Assembly: GCA_017615245.1 (NCBI GenBank) | Contig: JAGAAL010000057.1 | Coordinates: 1 to 39,442 of the forward strand | Direction: 5' to 3' | DNA: 39,442 nt | From: Bacteroidaceae bacterium | GTDB taxonomy: Bacteria; Bacteroidota; Bacteroidia; Bacteroidales; Bacteroidaceae | Shown: positions 5,720-39,442 of the stretch, one piece after another | Layout of the letters: each line of letters starts with the position of its first letter | Position numbering within the stretch: the stretch's first letter is position 1 | Position numbers and translations under genes: made by a program | The notes under the pieces: generated by a model | The model's input: only the letters and a program-made list of their open reading frames with translations | What the model was told of the DNA's origin: nothing | Database searches by the model: none

Positions 5720-6499
5720 ATGCATACAAGAGAAGAACAATTACAAGCTTTCGGACGGTTGCTCGATGTGATGGACACTTTGCGTGAGAAATGTCCGTGG
5801 GACAGGAAGCAAACGAACCAGAGTTTGCGACCTAACACAATAGAGGAGACATACGAGCTGTGCGAAGCACTGCTGAACGAGGATAATGTGAACATCTGCA
5901 AAGAATTGGGCGACGTGCTGCTGCACATCGTGTTTTATGCTAAGATTGGCAGCGAGAAGGGTGAGTTCGACATTGCCGACGTCTGCAACAAACTCTGCGA
6001 TAAACTCATCTTCCGCCATCCGCATGTTTATGGTGAAGTGAAGGTAGATGGTACGGAACAGGTGTTGCAGAATTGGGAGCAACTGAAGACGAAGGAGAAG
6101 GACGGCAATAAGACCGTGCTGAGCGGAGTGCCGACGGCACTACCATCGGTTATTAAGGCCGAACGCATTCAAGAGAAGGCGAGCAACGTGGGGTTCGATT
6201 GGCACAATCGCGAGGACGTGTGGCCGAAGGTGAAGGAGGAAATTGCGGAGTTCGAAACCGAAGTAGCGAGCATGGATCGCGATAAGGCTACGCGTGAGTT
6301 TGGCGACATCATGTTTGCGCTCATCAATGCCGCCCGACTTTATCACATTACGCCCGACACGGCGCTCGAGTTGACGAACCAGAAATTCATCAGCCGTTTC
6401 AACTACGTGGAGCAGCGGGCGAAAGAACAGGGACGCGCTCTTAAAGACATGACGCTCGAAGAGATGGATGCGCTGTGGGAGGAAGCGAAACGCCAATAA
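5720..6499 (+). CDS. mazG: Nucleoside triphosphate pyrophosphohydrolase MazG
   Basis: MazG hydrolyses NTPs and dNTPs to the monophosphates, in house-cleaning and in the stringent response. The 259-residue protein has two tandem MazG folds: LREKCPWDRKQTNQSLRPNTIEETYEL (about 17-43) with the ELGDVLLHIVF metal-binding EExxD-type motif, and a second half with WPKVKEEIAEFE and EFGDIMFALINAARL (about 174-213). It begins 37 bases after rsmE across a short TATAAG-like repeat and ends just before a terminator shared with convergent metX. Confidence 0.93.
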   Translation: MHTREEQLQAFGRLLDVMDTLREKCPWDRKQTNQSLRPNTIEETYELCEALLNEDNVNICKELGDVLLHIVFYAKIGSEKGEFDIADVCNKLCDKLIFRHPHVYGEVKVDGTEQVLQNWEQLKTKEKDGNKTVLSGVPTALPSVIKAERIQEKASNVGFDWHNREDVWPKVKEEIAEFETEVASMDRDKATREFGDIMFALINAARLYHITPDTALELTNQKFISRFNYVEQRAKEQGRALKDMTLEEMDALWEEAKRQ

Positions 6500-6544
6500 C
6501 CCTCATGACATGATAACGGAATAAAGTGATTAAAAGATAGGAAG

Positions 6545-6579
6545 GACCTTATGGCAGGTATGGTGCCATAAGGTCTTTT
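6545..6579. terminator. Bidirectional terminator between mazG and metX
   Basis: A perfect 12-bp stem (GACCTTATGGCA with TGCCATAAGGTC, 7-base loop) is followed by TTTT on the plus strand. The metX stop codon (6549-6551) lies in the left arm, so the last metX codons are part of the hairpin. Confidence 0.85.
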
Positions 6580-7562
6580 AATTGTTTCCATTCCAGCAGG
6601 AAACCGTCGTGGCCATAGAGCGATGTGATTTCGTGATATTCGGCGTCAGGGATGAACTGCGCCCATAGCTCCATTTCTTTGGGCGGAAAGAGCAGGTCGG
6701 TGTTGATGCTGACGACCATCGAGTGGGCTTTGATGCTGCCAAGTGCTTTCTCCACACCGCCACGGAATCGGCCTACGTTGTGGCTTTCGGCTGATTTTGC
6801 CACGCTATAATAAGAATAGGCATCGAAGCGTTTTACGAGTTTCTCGCCCTGATATTGTTCGTACGATTCGACGCGTTCGGGGAAGATACTGTCTTCGTTG
6901 CGCTCCGACTGCGTGAGTACGAAACTGTCGTAGGTGCGGTAGGTGATCAGTCCCTGCGCACGGGCGCATTTCAGTCCTGTTCGTCCGCCTTTGAGCGAGC
7001 GTTCTGCAAGGAATGTCGGGTCAGCTTCGAGGGCCATACGTTGTGCCGCGAGCGTGGCACCGCACCATGCGTTCATTCGGGCGCAGGTGGCAATGAATAT
7101 GGCGTTACGGATTACTTTCGGTTCCATGATGCTCCATTCCAAAGCCTGGAATCCGCCTATGCTGGCACCTACAAGCAGGTCGATGGTTGTGACGCCGAGA
7201 TGTCGGCGTACGAGAATGGAGGCGTTGATGATGTCGCGCACCGTCACGGGCGGAAACGACAGCATGTAGGGTTTGCGGGTACGGGGATTGATGGACGAAG
7301 GTCCGCTCGATCCGTAGCACGAGCCAAGCATGTTGACGCAACATACGAAATATTTGTCGGTATTGATGGCACACCCTGGACCTACGAGGTCGGGCCACCA
7401 TTCCTCTGCATCGGAATTGGCTGTCAGCGCGTGACAAATCCACACCACTTTCTTGTCGGTTGTGTATTCGCCCGACACGTGGTAGCAGATGTCGATTTCA
7501 GGCAGTTCGCCGCCAGCCTCGAATTTGAAGGGTGTTGTGACATGTAAATTCTTCTGTATCAT
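6549..7562 (-). CDS. metX: Homoserine O-acetyltransferase (MetX-type alpha/beta hydrolase)
   Basis: MetX acylates homoserine, the first committed step of methionine synthesis. The catalytic triad is visible: Ser134 in LLVGASIGGFQALEW, Asp in SINTDLLFPP and His in YGHDGFLLEW. The oxyanion/entry motif ICHALTANSDAEEWW and NMLGSCYGSSGPSSINPRT fit the family. I choose the ATG at 7562 (337 residues): an upstream in-frame ATG at 7619 would lie before the -7 box at 7586-7593. Acetyl versus succinyl donor cannot be settled by eye. The gene converges on mazG and ends inside the shared terminator. Confidence 0.9.
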   Translation of the reverse strand: MIQKNLHVTTPFKFEAGGELPEIDICYHVSGEYTTDKKVVWICHALTANSDAEEWWPDLVGPGCAINTDKYFVCCVNMLGSCYGSSGPSSINPRTRKPYMLSFPPVTVRDIINASILVRRHLGVTTIDLLVGASIGGFQALEWSIMEPKVIRNAIFIATCARMNAWCGATLAAQRMALEADPTFLAERSLKGGRTGLKCARAQGLITYRTYDSFVLTQSERNEDSIFPERVESYEQYQGEKLVKRFDAYSYYSVAKSAESHNVGRFRGGVEKALGSIKAHSMVVSINTDLLFPPKEMELWAQFIPDAEYHEITSLYGHDGFLLEWKQLKDLMAPYLP

Positions 7563-7585
7563 GCTTCGTTTTCTAATTTCGGCTG

Positions 7586-7593
7586 CAAAGTTA
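7586..7593 (-). promoter_or_regulatory. -7 promoter box for metX
   Basis: On the minus strand the sequence is TAACTTTG, a perfect TAnnTTTG box, 23 bases before the chosen ATG. It decides the metX start, since the longer reading frame would begin upstream of it. No TTTG -33 box is evident. Confidence 0.6.
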
Positions 7594-7639
7594 GTCATTT
7601 TTTTTGAATTGGCCATCATTTCCGAGCGGAAATGAGTTC

Positions 7640-7798
7640 AGCGAAGAGCAGGAAGAAATTACCGAGCCGCAATGAGCTCATGCAGCTGCAAGAAGAAATT
7701 GCGTGGTCAGCAACGTGCCTATGCAGCTGCAGGAAGAAATTGTGCAGTCAACAATGGCGCTATGCAGCTGCAAGAAGAAATTGTGCGCAGACAATGAC
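7640..7798. repeat. Imperfect 41-bp tandem repeat, about four copies
   Basis: The unit begins ATGCAGCTGCAAGAAGAAAT at 7680, 7721 and 7762, an exact 41-bp period. A more diverged copy precedes them, aligned by GGAAGAAATT at 7651. Each of the three good copies holds the palindrome GCAGCTGC. Because 41 is not a multiple of three the array is unlikely to be coding. It fills the gap between the radical SAM gene end and the metX promoter. Confidence 0.8.
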
Positions 7799-8686
7799 TT
7801 ACCTATGGTGAGGCTCTTCAATGCGGCGCTTCACCAACTCCATGAATTCATAATTCTTCAGTCCCCAACCAGGTTCGGCTAATAATTGTGGCGGTGACTG
7901 GCTCACGAACCGCTCGAAGACGAGGTCGGGACGTGAACGACGGATGAATTCAACAACAAGGTCGGCATATTCCTCCGCCGTGAAGCGAATGAAATCTTCT
8001 GGGCAATCGGCATATTCTTCAGCCATCCGCGTTCCCTTGATGAGTTGCAGCTGATGGAGTTTGAGTGTGGTGAGTGGTAGGTCCGAGAGAATGTCGGCCT
8101 CGGCCAGCATATCGGCTTTCGTCTCCCCGGGCAGTCCCATGATAATATGTCCGCCGACTCGGATTCCGCGTGCCGCTGTCGCCTCGATGGCCTGACGAGT
8201 ACAAGCAAAGTCGTGACCGCGGTTGATGCGTTGCAAAGTGCGGTCGTACACGCTTTCGATGCCATATTCCACCAGAATGAACGTGTGGCGATTCAAGTCG
8301 GCGAGATAGTCGAGCAATTCTGCCGGCATACAGTCGGGCCGTGTGCCGATGACCAGTCCCACGATATCATCGACGTCCAATGCCTCTTCATATTTGTTGC
8401 GTAATGTGTCAAGGTCGGCGTATGTATTTGTATAGGCTTGGAAATAGGCGAGGTAGCGCATTTCTGGATATTTCCGTCCGAAAAAAAACTTGCCCTCTTC
8501 AAGCTGCTGGCGGATGGAACGGTCGGTTTGACAGTAATCGGGATTGAACGTCTGGTTGTTGCAATACGTGCAACCGCCAGTGCCCACTCGTCCGTCACGA
8601 TTGGGACAGGTGAAGCCTGCGTTGATACTGATTTTCTGGGCTTTGAATCCCAATTGTCGGGTAAGCCACGAACCGAATTCGTTCAT
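7799..8686 (-). CDS. Radical SAM protein, TIGR01212/YhcC-YtqA family
   Basis: The protein carries a Cys-rich radical SAM motif near the N-terminus, GFTCPNRDGRVGTGGCTYCNN, the CxnCxxC arrangement of the YhcC family (elongator-like radical SAM fold). Further marks are YLAYFQAYTNTYA, IGTRPDCMP, EYGIESVYDRTLQRINRGHD and HIIMGLPGET. The substrate of this family is unknown to me. The ATG at 8686 gives 295 residues and leaves about 17 residues before the first cysteine, as is usual; a TTG at 8716 would overlap the promoter box. Confidence 0.88.
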   Translation of the reverse strand: MNEFGSWLTRQLGFKAQKISINAGFTCPNRDGRVGTGGCTYCNNQTFNPDYCQTDRSIRQQLEEGKFFFGRKYPEMRYLAYFQAYTNTYADLDTLRNKYEEALDVDDIVGLVIGTRPDCMPAELLDYLADLNRHTFILVEYGIESVYDRTLQRINRGHDFACTRQAIEATAARGIRVGGHIIMGLPGETKADMLAEADILSDLPLTTLKLHQLQLIKGTRMAEEYADCPEDFIRFTAEEYADLVVEFIRRSRPDLVFERFVSQSPPQLLAEPGWGLKNYEFMELVKRRIEEPHHR

Positions 8687-33253: not shown

Positions 33254-33990
33254 TTAATGCTCCTGAATATACTTATATATCTCCAGCACATCCTGGGTAT
33301 CTACCACTCCGTCACCATTCACATCTTGAGGAACTTTCTCTGGTTGTTCTTCTTTGTATGTCTCTATTTTCTTGAAGTTCTTCCACCCATCTGCCACATA
33401 GTATGCATTTTCTGAACCTTCTGGAACATAGAGGGTACAAGTTTCATAAAGCGGGCTTGCAAAATCATTAGCCACTTTGGGAGGGCGTTTTGCTAGCACA
33501 GCCAGAGATTCGATACCTATTGTCTGTCCGAAAACCACATTATCAATAGATTCTACATTACTAGGGATAACCGCATTTTTTAACGGTTCTTCATTGAGTA
33601 TTAGATAATGATAAGGAGCAAAATAAAAAGCATAAGCCCCTCCTTTAACTCTACACCACGCATCAAAACTTGAAATATGTATTACTGTCAGGCTAGTGCA
33701 GTTATCAAAAGCCTGGGATCCAATCGATATCACACTATTTGGGATTTCAATTGAAGTTAATCCTATACAACCACCGAAAGCTCCATCTCCAATTGAAGTC
33801 ACACTATTGGGTATCTGTATTGAAATCAATCTTGTGCAACCACTGAAAGTACTACTTCCAATTGATGTTACACTATTTCCTATTGTTACTGATGTCAAAC
33901 CAGTACAACCATAGAAAGCCCAACCACCAATTGAAGTCACACTATTTGGAATCTCAATTGAAGTCAAGCCTGTACAATCAGAGTATTTAC
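33254..33990 (-). pseudogene. 5'-truncated BspA-like leucine-rich repeat protein
   Basis: The frame encodes about four and a half 23-residue BspA/TpLRR units of the form [21 protein letters not shown], then a unique segment. It ends with a dockerin-like [20 protein letters not shown], a tail common in Prevotella surface proteins. No ATG or signal peptide precedes the repeats: reading upstream, the frame gives [12 protein letters not shown] after a stop near 34000, so LRR similarity ends abruptly at about 33985. A TTG at 33967 could start translation, but the product would not be exported. Most of the gene, with its signal peptide, appears deleted or displaced at the edge of the accessory island. 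The DNA repeats have a 69-bp period. Confidence 0.75.
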
Positions 33991-34336
33991 AAGTCTCTTT
34001 TTATCAGCTATTTACATATAAAACGGTAGAAAAATGATGACGTAGATTCTATAAAGATTAGAAAATATGCAAATTTAACGTATTTAACTTTTCTTAAGCG
34101 AGCAGACATCGGATAATTTCCTGTTTTGGCATTTTGAATTGCATCGTCCTATGGAAGAATGTTATAAGCGAGTATGTTCTATGTGCGACATTTACAATGT
34201 GGTTGTTATTGCGGAATTTGGCAATTGCAAATCCCAAATAGTATAAAAATCGTGAAGGACAAACAGTTTTTTTCATTCTTCTGTATGTTTTCCGAAAAAA
34301 ATATATAACTTTGCACTTAAAATCAATATATTTACA
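33991..34336. other. Island edge: non-coding gap before the R-M cluster
   Basis: This AT-rich 346-bp gap has no convincing gene. A minus-strand -7-like box (TAAATTTG, 34070-34077) points toward the broken LRR gene and may be its orphan promoter. A 60-codon minus-strand frame at 34094-34276 has no recognisable motif and is not called. The cluster promoter is at 34299-34333. Confidence 0.5.
34299..34333 (+). promoter_or_regulatory. R-M cluster promoter with possible operator
   Basis: The -7 box TAACTTTG (34306-34313) lies 23 bases before the XRE gene. AAATATAT (34299-34306) and ATATATTT (34326-34333) form an 8-bp inverted repeat that brackets the box and start site. This is where an autoregulatory XRE/C-protein would be expected to bind. 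AT-rich composition makes chance a real alternative. Confidence 0.45.
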
Positions 34337-34540
34337 ATGGATGCGTTAAATAGAATAAAAGTTGTTCTGGTTGAGCAACGGAAGACTGGAAAATGGTTGT
34401 CTGAACAGTTGGGAGTTAATGTCGCCACAACAAGCAGGTGGTGCTCGAATGTGACGCAACCGGACTTGCAGACATTAGACAAAATCGCAAAGCTCCTTGA
34501 CATTGACGTAAAAGACTTGTTGAACTCAACTGAAAAATAA
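34337..34540 (+). CDS. XRE-family regulator (control-protein-like)
   Basis: The 67-residue protein is a single helix-turn-helix of the Cro/CI type: GKWLSEQLGVNVATTSRWCSN (about 18-38), then PDLQTLDKIAKLLDIDVKDLL. Small XRE proteins placed before restriction-modification genes act as C proteins, delaying endonuclease expression after transfer. It lies 12 bases before the methyltransferase gene and is transcribed with it, so control of the cluster is a good inference. No experimental link is implied. Confidence 0.82.
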   Translation: MDALNRIKVVLVEQRKTGKWLSEQLGVNVATTSRWCSNVTQPDLQTLDKIAKLLDIDVKDLLNSTEK

Positions 34541-34552
34541 AATTAGCATATT

Positions 34553-35527
34553 ATGGGAAAAGCAAAACCTTTTATCAAGTGGGTTGGCGGCAAGAGTCAG
34601 CTCATTGAACAACTGGATGCACAACTTCCAGCTGACTTTGATAATTGGGAGAATGTAACGTACATAGAACCATTTGTGGGTGGTGGAGCAATGCTCTTCT
34701 ATATGCTTCAACGTTATCCTAATATCCAACACGCTATTATCAATGATATAAATCCAGATTTGGCAATATGCTACCGAACTGTCAGAGATACCCCTGAACA
34801 GTTAATAGAGTCATTAATGGATATTGAGAATGCGTATTTGGCTCTTGAAACGGAAGAAGGAAGAAAAGACTTTTTCATGGCTGCTCGTTATAGGTATAAC
34901 GAGAAGAATCTTGACCCCATCGAGAATACAACAAAATTCTTCTTCCTGAATAGGACTTGTTTCAATGGTCTTTATCGAGTAAACAAGAAGGGATTATTCA
35001 ATGTTCCTTTCGGGAAATATGCAAATCCAACAATATGCGATCCTGAAACCATAAGGAAAGATAGCGAGTTGTTGCAACGCGTGGAGATTCTAAATAGTGA
35101 CTTTGAGACAACATTTGAACATGCACGTGGCAATACTCTTTTTTACTTCGACCCTCCATACCGTCCGTTGAGTGACACCTCAAGTTTCAATGATTATGCG
35201 AAAGAAGCTTTTAATGATGATGCTCAGGTGCGTCTAAAAGAGTATTGCGACCATATTAACGAAGCAGGGTTTCATTTCATGCTAAGCAACTCGGATTGTA
35301 AGGGCAAGAATGAAAATGACAACTTCTTTGATGTATTGTATGGCGCGTATCAGATTGAAAGAGTCTGGGCTTCAAGAAGCATTAACTCTAATCCTGAAAA
35401 GCGAGGAAAGTTGACAGAAATACTTGTTCACAATTATCTGGACACTAAGCATAACTATCAGACAAACCTTTTACAATTTGTGGCAAATAAGAATGCTCGA
35501 GTTGTTGCAATGGCTGTAAATCAATAA
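34553..35527 (+). CDS. D12-class DNA adenine N6-methyltransferase (DpnM/Dam-like)
   Basis: The 324-residue enzyme uses SAM to methylate adenine, most probably in GATC. FIKWVGGKSQL (7-17) is the D12 SAM-binding start, EPFVGGGAML follows, RTCFNGLYRVN (134-144) is the D12 signature, and DPPY (200-203) is the catalytic motif IV. It is followed after 6 bases by a DpnII-type endonuclease, which supports GATC as target. Codons are AT-rich compared with the genes before 33 kb. Confidence 0.92.
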   Translation: MGKAKPFIKWVGGKSQLIEQLDAQLPADFDNWENVTYIEPFVGGGAMLFYMLQRYPNIQHAIINDINPDLAICYRTVRDTPEQLIESLMDIENAYLALETEEGRKDFFMAARYRYNEKNLDPIENTTKFFFLNRTCFNGLYRVNKKGLFNVPFGKYANPTICDPETIRKDSELLQRVEILNSDFETTFEHARGNTLFYFDPPYRPLSDTSSFNDYAKEAFNDDAQVRLKEYCDHINEAGFHFMLSNSDCKGKNENDNFFDVLYGAYQIERVWASRSINSNPEKRGKLTEILVHNYLDTKHNYQTNLLQFVANKNARVVAMAVNQ

Positions 35528-35533
35528 TATAAT

Positions 35534-36352
35534 ATGAGAGACTTTAACAAATTCATGTCTCAGCTTCAAGAGACGAACCAAACACTTGATTTCTTCTGCG
35601 ATTTCGATAAAATTGCAGCAAATGTAGATAATATCAAACTAAGCTTATGTATGCTAAATAGTATGATTGGCACTACAGATTTAAGGAAGAGTGTTGAAAC
35701 TATATGGAATCGTGACCGTACCGCATTCAGCGTGATGGATATTCTTATTGCTGTTCGTAGCGAAGGCAAAAAAGCGGTTCTTAATTCCGCTGGTCAATGT
35801 ATTATTCTCGATAGGCTCTTCACCAGTATTGATGGCGTGTTGGAGTATCTTGAAGGAACAGGTCTTGCAGATTTGTTCCGTCAAAAGAAGATAAACGATT
35901 TGGTTGATTATGTTTTTGGAATTGAAACAGGTCTCGATAGTAATGCAAGAAAGAATCGTAGTGGTCATGTCATGGAAAGTATGGTAGCTAACATTTTGGA
36001 CAAGAATGGAGTTAAGTACCGTCAGGAGGTATATTCAACGGAATGGCCAAACCTCCAGAAAGTCCTTGGCGATGATGAAAAGAGATTTGATTTCGTAATC
36101 AAAACTACTTCTAAAACCTATTTGATAGAAGTGAATTTCTATAGTGGAGGTGGTTCAAAACTTAACGAAGTCGCACGCTCTTATTCTGATATTGCTCCAA
36201 AGGTTAACTCGGTGCCAGGTTTTGAATTTGTGTGGATTACAGATGGTATTGGCTGGAAGAGCGCAAGAAACAAATTGCAAGAGGCTTATTCTATTATTCC
36301 AAGTATCTACAACCTTACAGATATTGTTGATTTTATTAAATTTGTAAAATAA
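35534..36352 (+). CDS. Type II restriction endonuclease, DpnII/MboI-like (GATC)
   Basis: The 272-residue protein matches the DpnII family. GLDSNARKNRSGHVME (133-148) holds a conserved Glu, KRFDFVI (183-189) the active-site Asp, and LIEVNFYSGGGSKLNEVARSY (197-217) the EVN variant of the PD-(D/E)XK core, with the family's GGGSKLNEVAR. DpnII cuts unmethylated GATC, so the adjacent D12 methyltransferase would protect host DNA. Length fits known members (about 270-290). Confidence 0.9.
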   Translation: MRDFNKFMSQLQETNQTLDFFCDFDKIAANVDNIKLSLCMLNSMIGTTDLRKSVETIWNRDRTAFSVMDILIAVRSEGKKAVLNSAGQCIILDRLFTSIDGVLEYLEGTGLADLFRQKKINDLVDYVFGIETGLDSNARKNRSGHVMESMVANILDKNGVKYRQEVYSTEWPNLQKVLGDDEKRFDFVIKTTSKTYLIEVNFYSGGGSKLNEVARSYSDIAPKVNSVPGFEFVWITDGIGWKSARNKLQEAYSIIPSIYNLTDIVDFIKFVK

Positions 36353-36353
36353 T

Positions 36354-36626
36354 ATGGCTTGTAACAAAGATCATTCTCAGATTCAAAGAATTATGGCAAC
36401 TCTGCCTACTGACCAAGGTGGAGTCGGCCGACATAAATGTGCTGCTTGTGCTTACGAAGCAGGGTATCAAGCAGGATACAATCTTAACGGTACGTTGAGT
36501 GTTGATAATGTTTTATTACACTTGGAAGAGAGTCAGGCAAAAGCGCAACGACATAAAAGTCCACATGCTGCTTTTGCATTAGGTTATTATCACGGAGTAT
36601 GCCAACGAACAAACGACGACAATTAA
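36354..36626 (+). CDS. Small CxxC protein with internal duplication, unknown function
   Basis: The 90-residue protein starts one base after the endonuclease stop. It has RHKCAACAYEAGYQAGY (26-42, CxxC at 29-32) and, 40 residues later, RHKSPHAAFALGYYHGV (66-82). The two segments align as RHK then A-aromatic-x-x-GYxxG, so the protein looks like two copies of one short unit, only the first keeping cysteines. I do not know its function. Its place inside the operon suggests a role in restriction, its control, or in DNA or metal binding. Confidence 0.75.
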   Translation: MACNKDHSQIQRIMATLPTDQGGVGRHKCAACAYEAGYQAGYNLNGTLSVDNVLLHLEESQAKAQRHKSPHAAFALGYYHGVCQRTNDDN

Positions 36627-36627
36627 T

Positions 36628-37152
36628 ATGATTAAAGGCGGAGTAGGTGGTGGTAATACCATCACAGGATTAATCTATGAAGGTAAGGTTGACCTATCGA
36701 CCTATCTATCTCAACAAAATGATTATGAAGTAAAAGGCTCAGAAGTCTTTTATAAAGGGAATGTAGTTGCCTATGTTTTTAAAAAACATGAGTTTTACAG
36801 GTTCCTAAATAAAAATGGCGTTGACTGGAAACAAAAAATTTCTAGTCAGTTACTTCCCGACAACTGCATTTATGTAATTGTCAACAATACTCTGTTTATT
36901 ATTGAAGTAAAGAATCAAAATGTTGGAGGTAGTGTTGATGAAAAATTGCAGACATGCGATTTCAAGAGAAAACAATATATTAAATTGCTATCTCAGTTAA
37001 ATATCGAAGTAGAATACGTTTATATACTTAGTCAATGGTTTAAGAATCCAAAATATAAGGATGTCTTGGACTACATAATTAGTGTAAATTGCCATTATTA
37101 CTTTGATTATATTCCACTTCAAAAATTGGGGTTGCCTGTACCTGAACAATGA
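36628..37152 (+). CDS. PD-(D/E)XK nuclease, probable second restriction endonuclease
   Basis: The 174-residue protein has a clean PD-(D/E)XK core: Pro77-Asp78, then Glu93-Val-Lys95 in LFIIEVKNQ. A conserved-looking N-terminus KGGVGGGNTITGLIYE (3-18) and GSVDEKLQTCDFKRKQY (101-117) complete the fold. I recognise this as a widespread nuclease-like family but cannot name a characterised member. Its stop overlaps the start of the next methyltransferase by ATGA, the arrangement of an R-M pair. A nicking or Vsr-like repair role is an alternative. Confidence 0.75.
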   Translation: MIKGGVGGGNTITGLIYEGKVDLSTYLSQQNDYEVKGSEVFYKGNVVAYVFKKHEFYRFLNKNGVDWKQKISSQLLPDNCIYVIVNNTLFIIEVKNQNVGGSVDEKLQTCDFKRKQYIKLLSQLNIEVEYVYILSQWFKNPKYKDVLDYIISVNCHYYFDYIPLQKLGLPVPEQ

Positions 37153-38027
37153 TTCCATCATACTATAAATCATCCAACAACGACTTCACCTTGATTCAAG
37201 GTGATTGCGTAGAGACTTTGTCAAAATTTAACTTTGGATTTGACATGGTCTTTGCTGATCCACCATACTTTTTGTCAGGCGGTGGCATATCATGTCAAAG
37301 TGGGCAGGTCGTTTGTGTTGATAAAGGTGAATGGGATAAACCTTCAACTCCTGAAGAAATGGATGCGTTTAATCTTAAATGGTTATCTGCTTGTAGAAAG
37401 CACATGAAAGATAATGCAACTATTTGGATTTCTGGTACTCATCACAATATATTTAGTGTTCAGCAACAACTTCTGAAACTGGGCTTCAAAATACTGAATG
37501 TTATAACTTGGGCAAAAACCAATCCGCCGCCAAACATTTCTTGTCGATATTTTACATATTCGGCGGAGTTCATCATCTGGGCAAGAAAGTCACAAAAAGT
37601 AGCTCATTACTACAACTATGATTTGATGAAGCAACTTAATGGAGACAAACAAATGACAGATGTGTGGCAATTGCCAGCCATTGGACGTTGGGAGAAGTCA
37701 TGTGGTAAGCACCCGACACAAAAGCCACTGGGAGTTTTAGCAAGATTGATTCAAGCCAGTACTCAACCAGGGGCGTGGATTCTTGACCCCTTTAATGGAA
37801 GTGCGACAACTGGTATTGCTGCAAACTTACTTGGCAGAAAATACCTTGGGTTAGAAATAGAAGATGAATTCCTTTCAATGAGTAAAGCCAGAAGAGAAGA
37901 AATAGAGAATAGTGCCGTTCGTAGCGACTATCTGGAAAGATTGGCTAAGGCAAAAATAATTCTGCCTCCTGATAACTTCTTTGTGGCGGATGACCCTGAT
38001 ATAAATTACGGAGTGCCTTGGTTATAA
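37149..38027 (+). CDS. Beta-class DNA methyltransferase (DpnA/HinfI-like)
   Basis: The 292-residue protein has the beta-class order: catalytic DPPY (37-40) in FADPPYFLSGGGISCQSGQ, then motif I near the C-terminus, DPFNGSATTG (213-222). NPPPNISCRYFTYSAEFIIWA and GKHPTQKPLGVLARLI are shared with DpnA, the second methylase of DpnII systems, and more loosely with GANTC methylases. Motif I has Ala where FxGxGTTG usually has Gly. It may be the second GATC enzyme of a DpnII-type system or the mate of the upstream PD-(D/E)XK protein with another site. Confidence 0.88.
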   Translation: MIPSYYKSSNNDFTLIQGDCVETLSKFNFGFDMVFADPPYFLSGGGISCQSGQVVCVDKGEWDKPSTPEEMDAFNLKWLSACRKHMKDNATIWISGTHHNIFSVQQQLLKLGFKILNVITWAKTNPPPNISCRYFTYSAEFIIWARKSQKVAHYYNYDLMKQLNGDKQMTDVWQLPAIGRWEKSCGKHPTQKPLGVLARLIQASTQPGAWILDPFNGSATTGIAANLLGRKYLGLEIEDEFLSMSKARREEIENSAVRSDYLERLAKAKIILPPDNFFVADDPDINYGVPWL

Positions 38028-38043
38028 GTTTTGCTCAACAAGG

Positions 38044-38868
38044 ATGACATTAGAAAATTTAGATGGGATTAAGGTCTTTATAATCGAATCGCTTCGTAAT
38101 GGAGATAAAAAGACTGGTGAAGATTTGAAAGATAATCTTCGCCAGATTTGGTATGACCAGAATTTGATTTCTGACTTTGATTGTCAATATACTTATGTTC
38201 ATGACTCAAATGACTTAATTTTCACTATCAAGGATATTGAAAAACAAGTAACAACAAGTAACAAGTTGCCAATTCTCCAAATTGAATGTCATGGCTCATC
38301 AGATGGACTTCAATTAGGTTCAATGGAAATGGTCACATGGAAAGAACTCTTCAATTATATAAGACCTATTAATATTGCATCATACAATCTATTGATGCTC
38401 AATCTATCAATGTGTAATGGAGAGACTGTAATAAGATATATTGATCCGACGCAAAGAGCACCATTTAGAGCTGTCACAGGTCCAATTGGTGAAGTATTGC
38501 CTGAGGTCTTAGAAAAAGCGTGGTTATGTTTTTATGAGAATTACATAAAAGCTTTGACAGAAGATTATGGCCTTCATAAACTTGCTCAATCATCAGGATT
38601 AATTTATTATACCCAAGATTTTATTTTTGACGCTTACTATGATTTAGCCAATCAGAATCCTGAACTTTTTGAAGCATTGAGAAAAAAGGAGTTGTACGAA
38701 ATGTATGTTGCAGAAGGACCTCTCTTGATAGATCCAAAAGTTCATAGTTTATGGGTTGCAAAGGAACAAGCAAAAATCAAAGAGAAATATCGTTCAATGT
38801 TCTGCTACGATGATTTGAAAAGCCTTCAACAGGAAGCTTACAACAAGTTAAAACAAAGCGAAGAGTAA
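38044..38868 (+). CDS. Putative caspase/CHAT-like cysteine protease
   Basis: The 274-residue protein has the two catalytic signatures of the caspase-haemoglobinase fold. ILQIECHGSSDGLQL (77-91) has His83-Gly, and NLLMLNLSMCNGE (115-127) has Cys124 after a hydrophobic strand, 41 residues apart as is usual for CHAT and caspase-like domains. Between them WKELFNYIRPIN is a typical helix. The C-terminal half (150-274) is helical with no recognised domain. No signal peptide or membrane helix is present. It starts 16 bases after the methyltransferase and ends the operon. A protease effector that acts when restriction fails is a hypothesis from context only. Confidence 0.7.
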   Translation: MTLENLDGIKVFIIESLRNGDKKTGEDLKDNLRQIWYDQNLISDFDCQYTYVHDSNDLIFTIKDIEKQVTTSNKLPILQIECHGSSDGLQLGSMEMVTWKELFNYIRPINIASYNLLMLNLSMCNGETVIRYIDPTQRAPFRAVTGPIGEVLPEVLEKAWLCFYENYIKALTEDYGLHKLAQSSGLIYYTQDFIFDAYYDLANQNPELFEALRKKELYEMYVAEGPLLIDPKVHSLWVAKEQAKIKEKYRSMFCYDDLKSLQQEAYNKLKQSEE

Positions 38869-39015: not shown

Positions 39016-39442
39016 TTAGAGCCAGTTGCACCATCTGCCAACTATCATGACTATGGCAGTGGCGAATACAAAGAAGCCCAAGACGAAGAAGAACCAGAAG
39101 AACCACTGGGCATAATGCCCAAGGTAACAGCCATCATATTCCTTATAGCGATTCATGGCTTTCTTGCGTTCTTCGACCAACATGGCATTGACAGTCTGAA
39201 TAGTTGTCTGTGCTTGGTTGATCAGCCATTCTCGCTGCTTGCTGAACATCTCTTGTATCTTCTCCCAGTCAGCATCAGAAACAGTCACCGACACCTTCAA
39301 CTTTGTGGGCGCATCTTCCATGACCTGATCAATATGCTCATTGATGGTGTCAACTTTGCCGCTGATGGTTGTAACAGCATTGTCTAATTTGTTTTCTGCA
39401 CGTTGGTACTGTTGAATTGCCGACTCCAGTCCGAGCCTGGCA
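39016..39442 (-). CDS. Partial coiled-coil membrane protein, perhaps mobilization-associated
   Basis: The frame is open from the right edge of the window to the stop at 39016; 141 residues are visible and the N-terminus is missing. The visible part is a coiled coil (AIQQYQRAENKLDNAVTTI, INEHIDQVMEDAP), a second helical region (DWEKIQEMFSKQREWLINQA) and one strong C-terminal transmembrane segment (WFFWFFFVLGFFVFATAIVM). Proteins of this shape lie near relaxase genes on Bacteroidales mobilizable elements, as I recall, but no relaxase is visible here. An ATG at 39321 inside the frame is unlikely to be the true start. Confidence 0.65.
   Translation of the reverse strand, partial: ARLGLESAIQQYQRAENKLDNAVTTISGKVDTINEHIDQVMEDAPTKLKVSVTVSDADWEKIQEMFSKQREWLINQAQTTIQTVNAMLVEERKKAMNRYKEYDGCYLGHYAQWFFWFFFVLGFFVFATAIVMIVGRWCNWL

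Follow-up and report, generated by a model that had tools for sequence, protein, structure and literature searches.

A DpnII-type restriction-modification operon of a Bacteroidaceae bacterium with an exchangeable nuclease slot and a gene for a caspase-fold protein

Contig JAGAAL010000057.1 of a Bacteroidaceae bacterium was analysed over positions 1 to 39,442; this whole stretch of 39,442 nucleotides is referred to as the window. At 34337-38868 on the plus strand it carries an operon of seven open reading frames (ORFs), all in the same direction and spaced by 12, 6, 1, 1, −4 (an ATGA overlap) and 16 bases in gene order. We interpret it as a DpnII-type restriction-modification (R-M) operon for GATC which has been extended by plug-in genes at fixed places, with two nucleases and a caspase-fold protein as a second line, and we rate the probability of this interpretation at roughly two in three. 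The new point is a recurrent, exchangeable nuclease slot between the genes for DpnII (R) and the second methylase (M2). The features of the operon are as follows.

34306..34313, plus strand: promoter-like TAnnTTTG box, from a motif scan of the plus strand between 34000 and 38900
34337..34540, plus strand: XRE/Cro-type regulator, 67 residues; PF13443 (HTH_26), E 5e-10
34553..35527, plus strand: D12/Dam-type adenine methylase, first methylase (M1) of the core; PF02086, E 1.4e-60, and TIGR00571 above its cut-off
35534..36352, plus strand: DpnII endonuclease; PF04556, E 1.3e-100, and PADLOC REase_II, E 5e-85
36354..36626, plus strand: CxxC/His protein of the phrog_3941 family, 90 residues
36628..37152, plus strand: PD-(D/E)XK endonuclease, 174 residues, with a PD...ExK motif, in the cargo slot between DpnII and M2
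37149..38027, plus strand: DpnA-type N6 adenine methylase, M2 of the core; PF01555 (N6_N4_Mtase), E 4e-56
38044..38868, plus strand: caspase-fold (CHAT-like) protein, 274 residues, with a predicted dyad H83/C124

The original prediction, made from the sequence alone, had described seven co-directed genes with tight gaps and an ATGA overlap, and the ORF coordinates and measured gaps agree with it. Its assignments of the XRE regulator, the D12 methylase and DpnII are confirmed by the matches to PF13443, PF02086 and PF04556, those of the small CxxC protein and the PD-(D/E)XK nuclease by motifs read in the sequence, and that of the DpnA-like methylase by the PF01555 match together with 53% identity (over 250 residues) to M2 of the DpnII-type operon carried by Lactococcus plasmid pSRQ700. 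The TAnnTTTG box is presumably of the Bacteroidales −7 type. Three further plus-strand matches in the same scan, at 36337, 37229 and 38622, are all intragenic, and the CTTTGCA part of the box is conserved in all three aligned loci (the window and two related ones).

The pSRQ700 operon, which we take to be LlaDCHI, has counterparts of the D12 methylase (37.5% identity) and of DpnII (32%) as well. Like the window, such DpnII/MboI-type operons have adjacent, co-directed genes for a D12 methylase, a DpnA-type methylase and DpnII; in the window the order is M1-R-M2 and cargo separates R from M2. In a PDB search with the window M2, CcrM came out at the top, followed by two entries named DpnA. The DpnA methylase of Streptococcus methylates single-stranded GATC, while the D12/Dam type acts on double-stranded DNA.

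To find related loci we carried out profile searches with PF04556 at a threshold of E 0.001. Matches were obtained in 3 of 17 genomes of the genus, in 18 of 101 genomes of the family sample and in 15 of 395 genomes of the phylum sample; only three of the last were full-length, and the distant, partial ones were excluded from locus reading. In total, 23 related DpnII loci were read: those of all 17 other genomes matched in the genus and family samples, the window, and loci L006, L018, L057, L066 and L067, among which L006, L066 and L067 are contigs from a viral collection whose host is not known. In 19 of the 21 loci with enough sequence to judge M2 (the window among them, L166 and L174 not), a DpnA-type methylase adjoins DpnII. 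The two exceptions are L057, with another N6_N4 methylase, and L178, with a distant DpnII and no methylase seen. No D12 gene was found beside DpnII of L169. The frequent pairing of DpnA-type methylase and DpnII indicates that the core genes are not grouped by chance, and D12 methylase, DpnII and N6_N4 methylase are, as judged from gene content, the customary DpnII-type R-M set. The protein families suggest that the window operon recognizes and methylates GATC. Since M2 goes with DpnII, it is no sign of a second R-M system, and the nuclease is the only addition on the R-M side. We regard the locus as one DpnII-type system with a second nuclease and accessory genes; the 'two stacked R-M systems' offered as one option in the original prediction are not supported.

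Nineteen loci were available for analysis of the slot. The count omits L166 (contig ending after DpnII), L177 (order M1-M2-R), L178 (distant DpnII, methylases not seen) and L057 (different type of M2), and keeps L174 although its contig stops within the slot nuclease. An additional nuclease is present in 10 of the 19, in nine of them between DpnII and M2. The occupants of the slot differ: the 174-residue family in the window, L171 and L174, DUF6996/6997 proteins in L006 and L172, MutH/Sau3AI-like nucleases in L167 and L168, an HNH nuclease in L149, and a second DpnII in L165. In this last locus the tandem DpnII genes (6356-8022; identity to the window enzyme 73% and 46%) both lie under one methylase pair. 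The tenth locus, L066, has a 383-residue protein upstream of DpnII rather than between DpnII and M2, and its assignment as a nuclease is weak (HSDR_N, E 0.002, and NucS_C, E 0.005, both below cut-off). Spacing of the additional gene to both of its neighbours is −14 to 19 bases in the nine loci measured (all of the 10 except L174). The loci are not all independent: L167 and L168 come from the same genus, and L006 is closely related to the window. The presence of different enzymes in the same slot of relatives argues for a plug-in platform rather than for two separate systems.

Outside this set, DpnII and an N6_N4 methylase are separated by an Mrr-type nuclease (E 2e-21) in Fusobacterium locus L120. 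This locus comes from a plasmid collection in which 19 records matched and nine, L120 included, were opened. The other eight, from outside Bacteroidota and Fusobacteriota and with incomplete gene tables, showed core genes without a further nuclease; among them, L123 is a solitary DpnII-domain gene adjoining an exonuclease-domain gene, and L126 has a separate R-M system nearby on the opposite strand. The exact seven-gene combination of the window, for which the original prediction had proposed a search of genomes, was not met in any other locus searched.

The PD...ExK motif of the 174-residue nuclease is present in all eight aligned sequences of its family, window included. A Pfam match to PF20472 is below cut-off (E 0.002), and no similarity of the window protein to the Sau3AI/MutH endonucleases was detected. 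Homologues were found in seven of 395 genomes of the class, counting its own, and in two records of Neisseria gonorrhoeae, one of which was opened. In all eight readable loci besides the window (L171 and L174 included; L113, at a contig edge, excluded) the nuclease adjoins a D12 and/or DpnA-like methylase, and in two of the eight DpnII. The arrangement in L114 is D12-nuclease-DpnA with overlaps of 4 bases and without DpnII within the 15 kb read, so that by gene arrangement the nuclease holds the place of DpnII beside the same methylases. L117 has D12 followed by the nuclease and no N6_N4 methylase match within the 14 kb read. A DpnA-like methylase precedes the nuclease in L112 and in L115, the latter broken by an insertion, and in L116 the methylase is divergent from an XRE-nuclease pair. 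In the gonococcal locus L021, which looks by eye like the NgoAXI locus, the nuclease homologue (L021:5974-6508, 52% identical, not annotated in the record used) comes after a disrupted methylase, and a gene that by eye resembles DpnI is also present. For NgoAXI, PMC6789123 reports a disrupted methylase that is preceded by Drg or, in 2 of 25 strains, by Dam. NgoAXI/drg thus resembles the window in having a homologue of the 174-residue nuclease after a related adenine methylase, but differs in that the methylase is disrupted and that L021 shows no DpnII match.

The slot nucleases point in part to GATC as a target shared with DpnII. Sau3AI and MutH are GATC enzymes. The slot nucleases of L167 and L168 match MutH (PF02976, E 9e-21 and 3e-19), and in a search made with the L167 protein only, solved structures of Sau3AI (E 1e-21) and MutH (E 2e-17) were matched; in the window the same slot holds a different protein, the 174-residue enzyme. 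Because of the Sau3AI/MutH-like protein of L167, the second DpnII of L165 and the methylase neighbours of the 174-residue homologues, the window enzyme may also be directed at GATC. An alternative is that it attacks the same site in a different state, for example by nicking hemimethylated GATC or by acting on single-stranded or modified DNA, and so does not duplicate DpnII. MutH, a relative of the L167 slot enzyme, is known to nick hemimethylated GATC. However, the 174-residue type is the sole nuclease seen beside the methylases in L114, L117 and L112 and therefore should be able to restrict alone, which makes this alternative rather unlikely.

L006, a close relative, has the same operon with a different middle part. 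DNA identity to the window is 96.1% for D12, 93.7% for DpnII, 89.0% for the methylase and 92.7% for the caspase-like gene. High similarity ends at window position 36339, near the end of DpnII, and returns at 37148, the start of the methylase. In L006, the stretch between DpnII and the methylase encodes, in this order, a 259-residue DUF6996/6997 protein (labelled a type II restriction enzyme by PADLOC, E 2e-36), a CxxC protein, what looks by eye like a membrane protein, and a protein of the DndB/DGQHR type; the caspase-like gene comes after the methylase. The CxxC gene, 74% identical to that of the window, is the exception within the dissimilar middle part. The XRE protein is 75% identical in L006 and 97% in L066, which has the order XRE-D12-383-residue protein-DpnII-DpnA; at the DNA level XRE of L066 is 88% identical to the window and D12 only 66%, revealing a mosaic. 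As a further observation, L006:7186-14973 encodes two tyrosine recombinase-like proteins and one relaxase-like protein (by eye); the operon therefore probably moves on a mobile element, and L006, although filed as viral, resembles a mobilizable integrative element more than it does a phage. In the window, the operon is directly flanked on its left side by a leucine-rich-repeat ORF (BspA-like by eye, 33254-33967); to its right, an ORF for a membrane-protein-like product (39016-39441) is truncated by the contig end, and no borders of an element were recognized.

The 90-residue CxxC protein appears to consist of two similar halves (by eye), and its model has a mean predicted local distance difference test score (pLDDT) of 86. 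Relatives (L069-L103) occur on many prophage-like and plasmid stretches. A resemblance to ribosome modulation factor is weak and unconfirmed.

The 274-residue protein has a caspase fold in the predicted model, with a helical, low-confidence C-terminal part. It gave no credible sequence-family match in Pfam, PADLOC or NCBIfam, and no window protein matched a CHAT or C14 (peptidase C14) model at E up to 1. The CHAT/caspase-like protease of the original prediction therefore stands as to its caspase fold and conserved dyad, and 'CHAT-like' is a description of the fold only. Residues H83, G84 and C124 are invariant in 12 of 12 sequences and, in a second alignment, in 10 of 10; the split ORF of L054 was excluded from both. 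We did not recognize a sensor domain in the protein, which, together with the missing CHAT/C14 match, sets it apart from SAVED-CHAT, Craspase and other caspase-fold proteases. Two of its relatives lie within defence operons. In the type I R-M operon of L053 (4186-11395) the caspase-fold gene is located between HsdS and HsdR; this operon also has a gene for a 410-residue protein between HsdM and HsdS, and an AbiEii-like gene (by eye) after HsdR. In L014 (1389-6289; identical to L064), a Hachiman operon by PADLOC (HamB1, E 0; HamA1, E 2e-86), it overlaps the end of hamB, in the order HamA-HamB, by one base.

A caspase-fold protein with a conserved dyad next to nuclease genes could also be explained as a nuclease-protease pair, in which the protease cleaves and activates a pro-nuclease (the 174-residue enzyme or DpnII) in the manner of Canu, Hachiman or AVAST. 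Protease-activated nucleases taken up by defence systems are described in PMC12799240, and those pairs resemble the window in having a caspase-family protease in a defence locus beside nuclease genes. Yet the 174-residue nuclease is found without a protease in all eight readable homologous loci, and L006 has the protease but not this nuclease. DpnII has 272 residues in both protease-bearing loci (window and L006) and 271-292 in the rest of the 19, which gives no sign of a gating insertion. The pro-nuclease of Canu has a metallo-β-lactamase (MBL) fold, for which none of the seven window proteins gave a match at E up to 1. Canu also has an immunoglobulin-like domain after the caspase domain; the C-terminal part of the window model is helical and of low confidence and speaks neither for nor against such a domain. 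The window protein is associated with restriction systems and is not tied to one nuclease; the word 'restriction' does not occur in the main text of PMC12799240. We consider such a pair quite improbable.

For the extended DpnII-type operon which we prefer, the following mechanism is proposed. The D12/Dam-type and DpnA-type methylases would mark the GATC sites of the host, and unmarked incoming DNA would be cleaved both by DpnII and by the 174-residue PD-(D/E)XK enzyme, which are unrelated endonucleases, presumably with the same GATC target and subject to the same protection by methylation. A phage inhibitor that blocks one nuclease need not block the other, which may be the benefit of having both. 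The terminal caspase-fold protein would be the second line, a putative protease harming the cell upon failure or disturbance of restriction. Of the whole proposal, this caspase-like arm goes furthest and is the least secure.

Several observations weigh against this interpretation, the first of them concerning the second nuclease and its target. Nine of the 19 loci (L018, L067, L150, L164, L169, L170, L173, L175 and L176) have no additional nuclease, and one of these, L150, belongs to the same genus as the window. The L167 slot protein also passes the cut-off of MvaI_BcnI (E 1e-5), a family with other targets, and we know of no link of the HNH and DUF6996/6997 slot nucleases to GATC. The nuclease-methylase pairs of L112, L115, L116 and L021 have no adjoining D12 or DpnII, so that an independent system would also fit. 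In that case D12 and DpnII would act on GATC, and the 174-residue nuclease with the N6_N4 methylase on another sequence; the higher score of M2 against CcrM than against the DpnA entries can be quoted in favour. Against such independent systems, the DpnA-type methylase accompanies DpnII mostly in loci without the 174-residue nuclease, the nuclease stands with D12 and no N6_N4 match in L117 and between D12 and DpnA without DpnII in L114, and the slot is elsewhere occupied by Sau3AI/MutH-like enzymes or a second DpnII. We therefore give little credence to this explanation.

GATC usage is likewise ambiguous. In positions 1-34000 of the window GATC is found 42 times against 162 expected (0.26), and CTAG (0.22) and CCGG (0.27) are about as scarce. 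The observed-to-expected ratio of GATC is 0.23-0.61 in the three other contigs of the genome, 0.24-0.56 in eight samples of the same genus, 0.07-1.03 in five of the same family, and 0.99 and 0.89 in two of the same order. The scarcity is thus common to the genus samples, and the scarcest sample, G013 (0.07), had no DpnII match in the PF04556 search of the family. It is compatible with GATC restriction in the genus and no proof for the window operon.

Other observations against our interpretation concern the caspase-like gene. It is present in only two of the 19 DpnII loci, the window and L006, which are close relatives, and a model of the gene found no copy at 21 other DpnII loci. As their D12 genes are 96% identical in DNA, it may have been acquired a single time. 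Only four of 15 contexts of the gene are R-M or Hachiman operons; here near-identical loci were merged (L012 with L059-L063; L014 with L064; L011 with L058), 16 Klebsiella plasmid records were counted once with one opened, and H2-H16 and H20 were left unopened. Several relatives (L013, L052 and L007) have no recognized defence gene adjoining. The gene might accordingly be a mere passenger of a mobile element, co-transcribed with and unrelated to restriction. This is countered by the relatives between HsdS and HsdR and directly after HamB, by the 16-base gap to the methylase, which is the same in the window and L006, and by two other DpnII loci in which that end of the operon is occupied by AbiH or by a protein of the GmrSD type. 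A passenger is a possibility to be reckoned with, if not the one to which we incline. The combination of restriction and cell suicide considered in the original prediction hence gains from the relatives in type I R-M and Hachiman operons and loses by the rarity of the gene at DpnII loci. The prediction had also named a separation of its last four genes from DpnII-type genes as speaking against it. Homologues of the CxxC and caspase-like genes do lie mostly apart, those of the DpnA-type methylase do not, and the 174-residue nuclease stands half-way, adjoined by DpnII-type methylases in eight of eight loci and by DpnII in only two.

A wider version of our interpretation would regard the DpnII operons of Bacteroidota as a modular platform with two cargo sites. 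Site 1, between DpnII and M2, would take up a reserve endonuclease that shares the specificity of DpnII and belongs to one of at least five protein families; site 2, after M2, would take up a suicide effector (caspase-like, AbiH or GmrSD-type). In the window, the caspase-like protein would sense failure or inhibition of restriction and kill the cell. We put this forward tentatively and think it may well be wrong. In the open-access literature searched, neither a DpnII operon with a second GATC endonuclease nor an R-M operon with a caspase-like gene is described, which does not prove their absence. If the slot nucleases share their target, different enzyme families have been recruited repeatedly under one methylase pair. 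This would directly counter phage inhibitors that act on a single restriction enzyme, and position alone would reveal new GATC endonucleases such as the 174-residue and DUF6996/6997 families. The caspase-like gene would add classical restriction to the defence systems with an acquired protease and, if the platform exists as outlined, the window would encode a restriction system with its own caspase.

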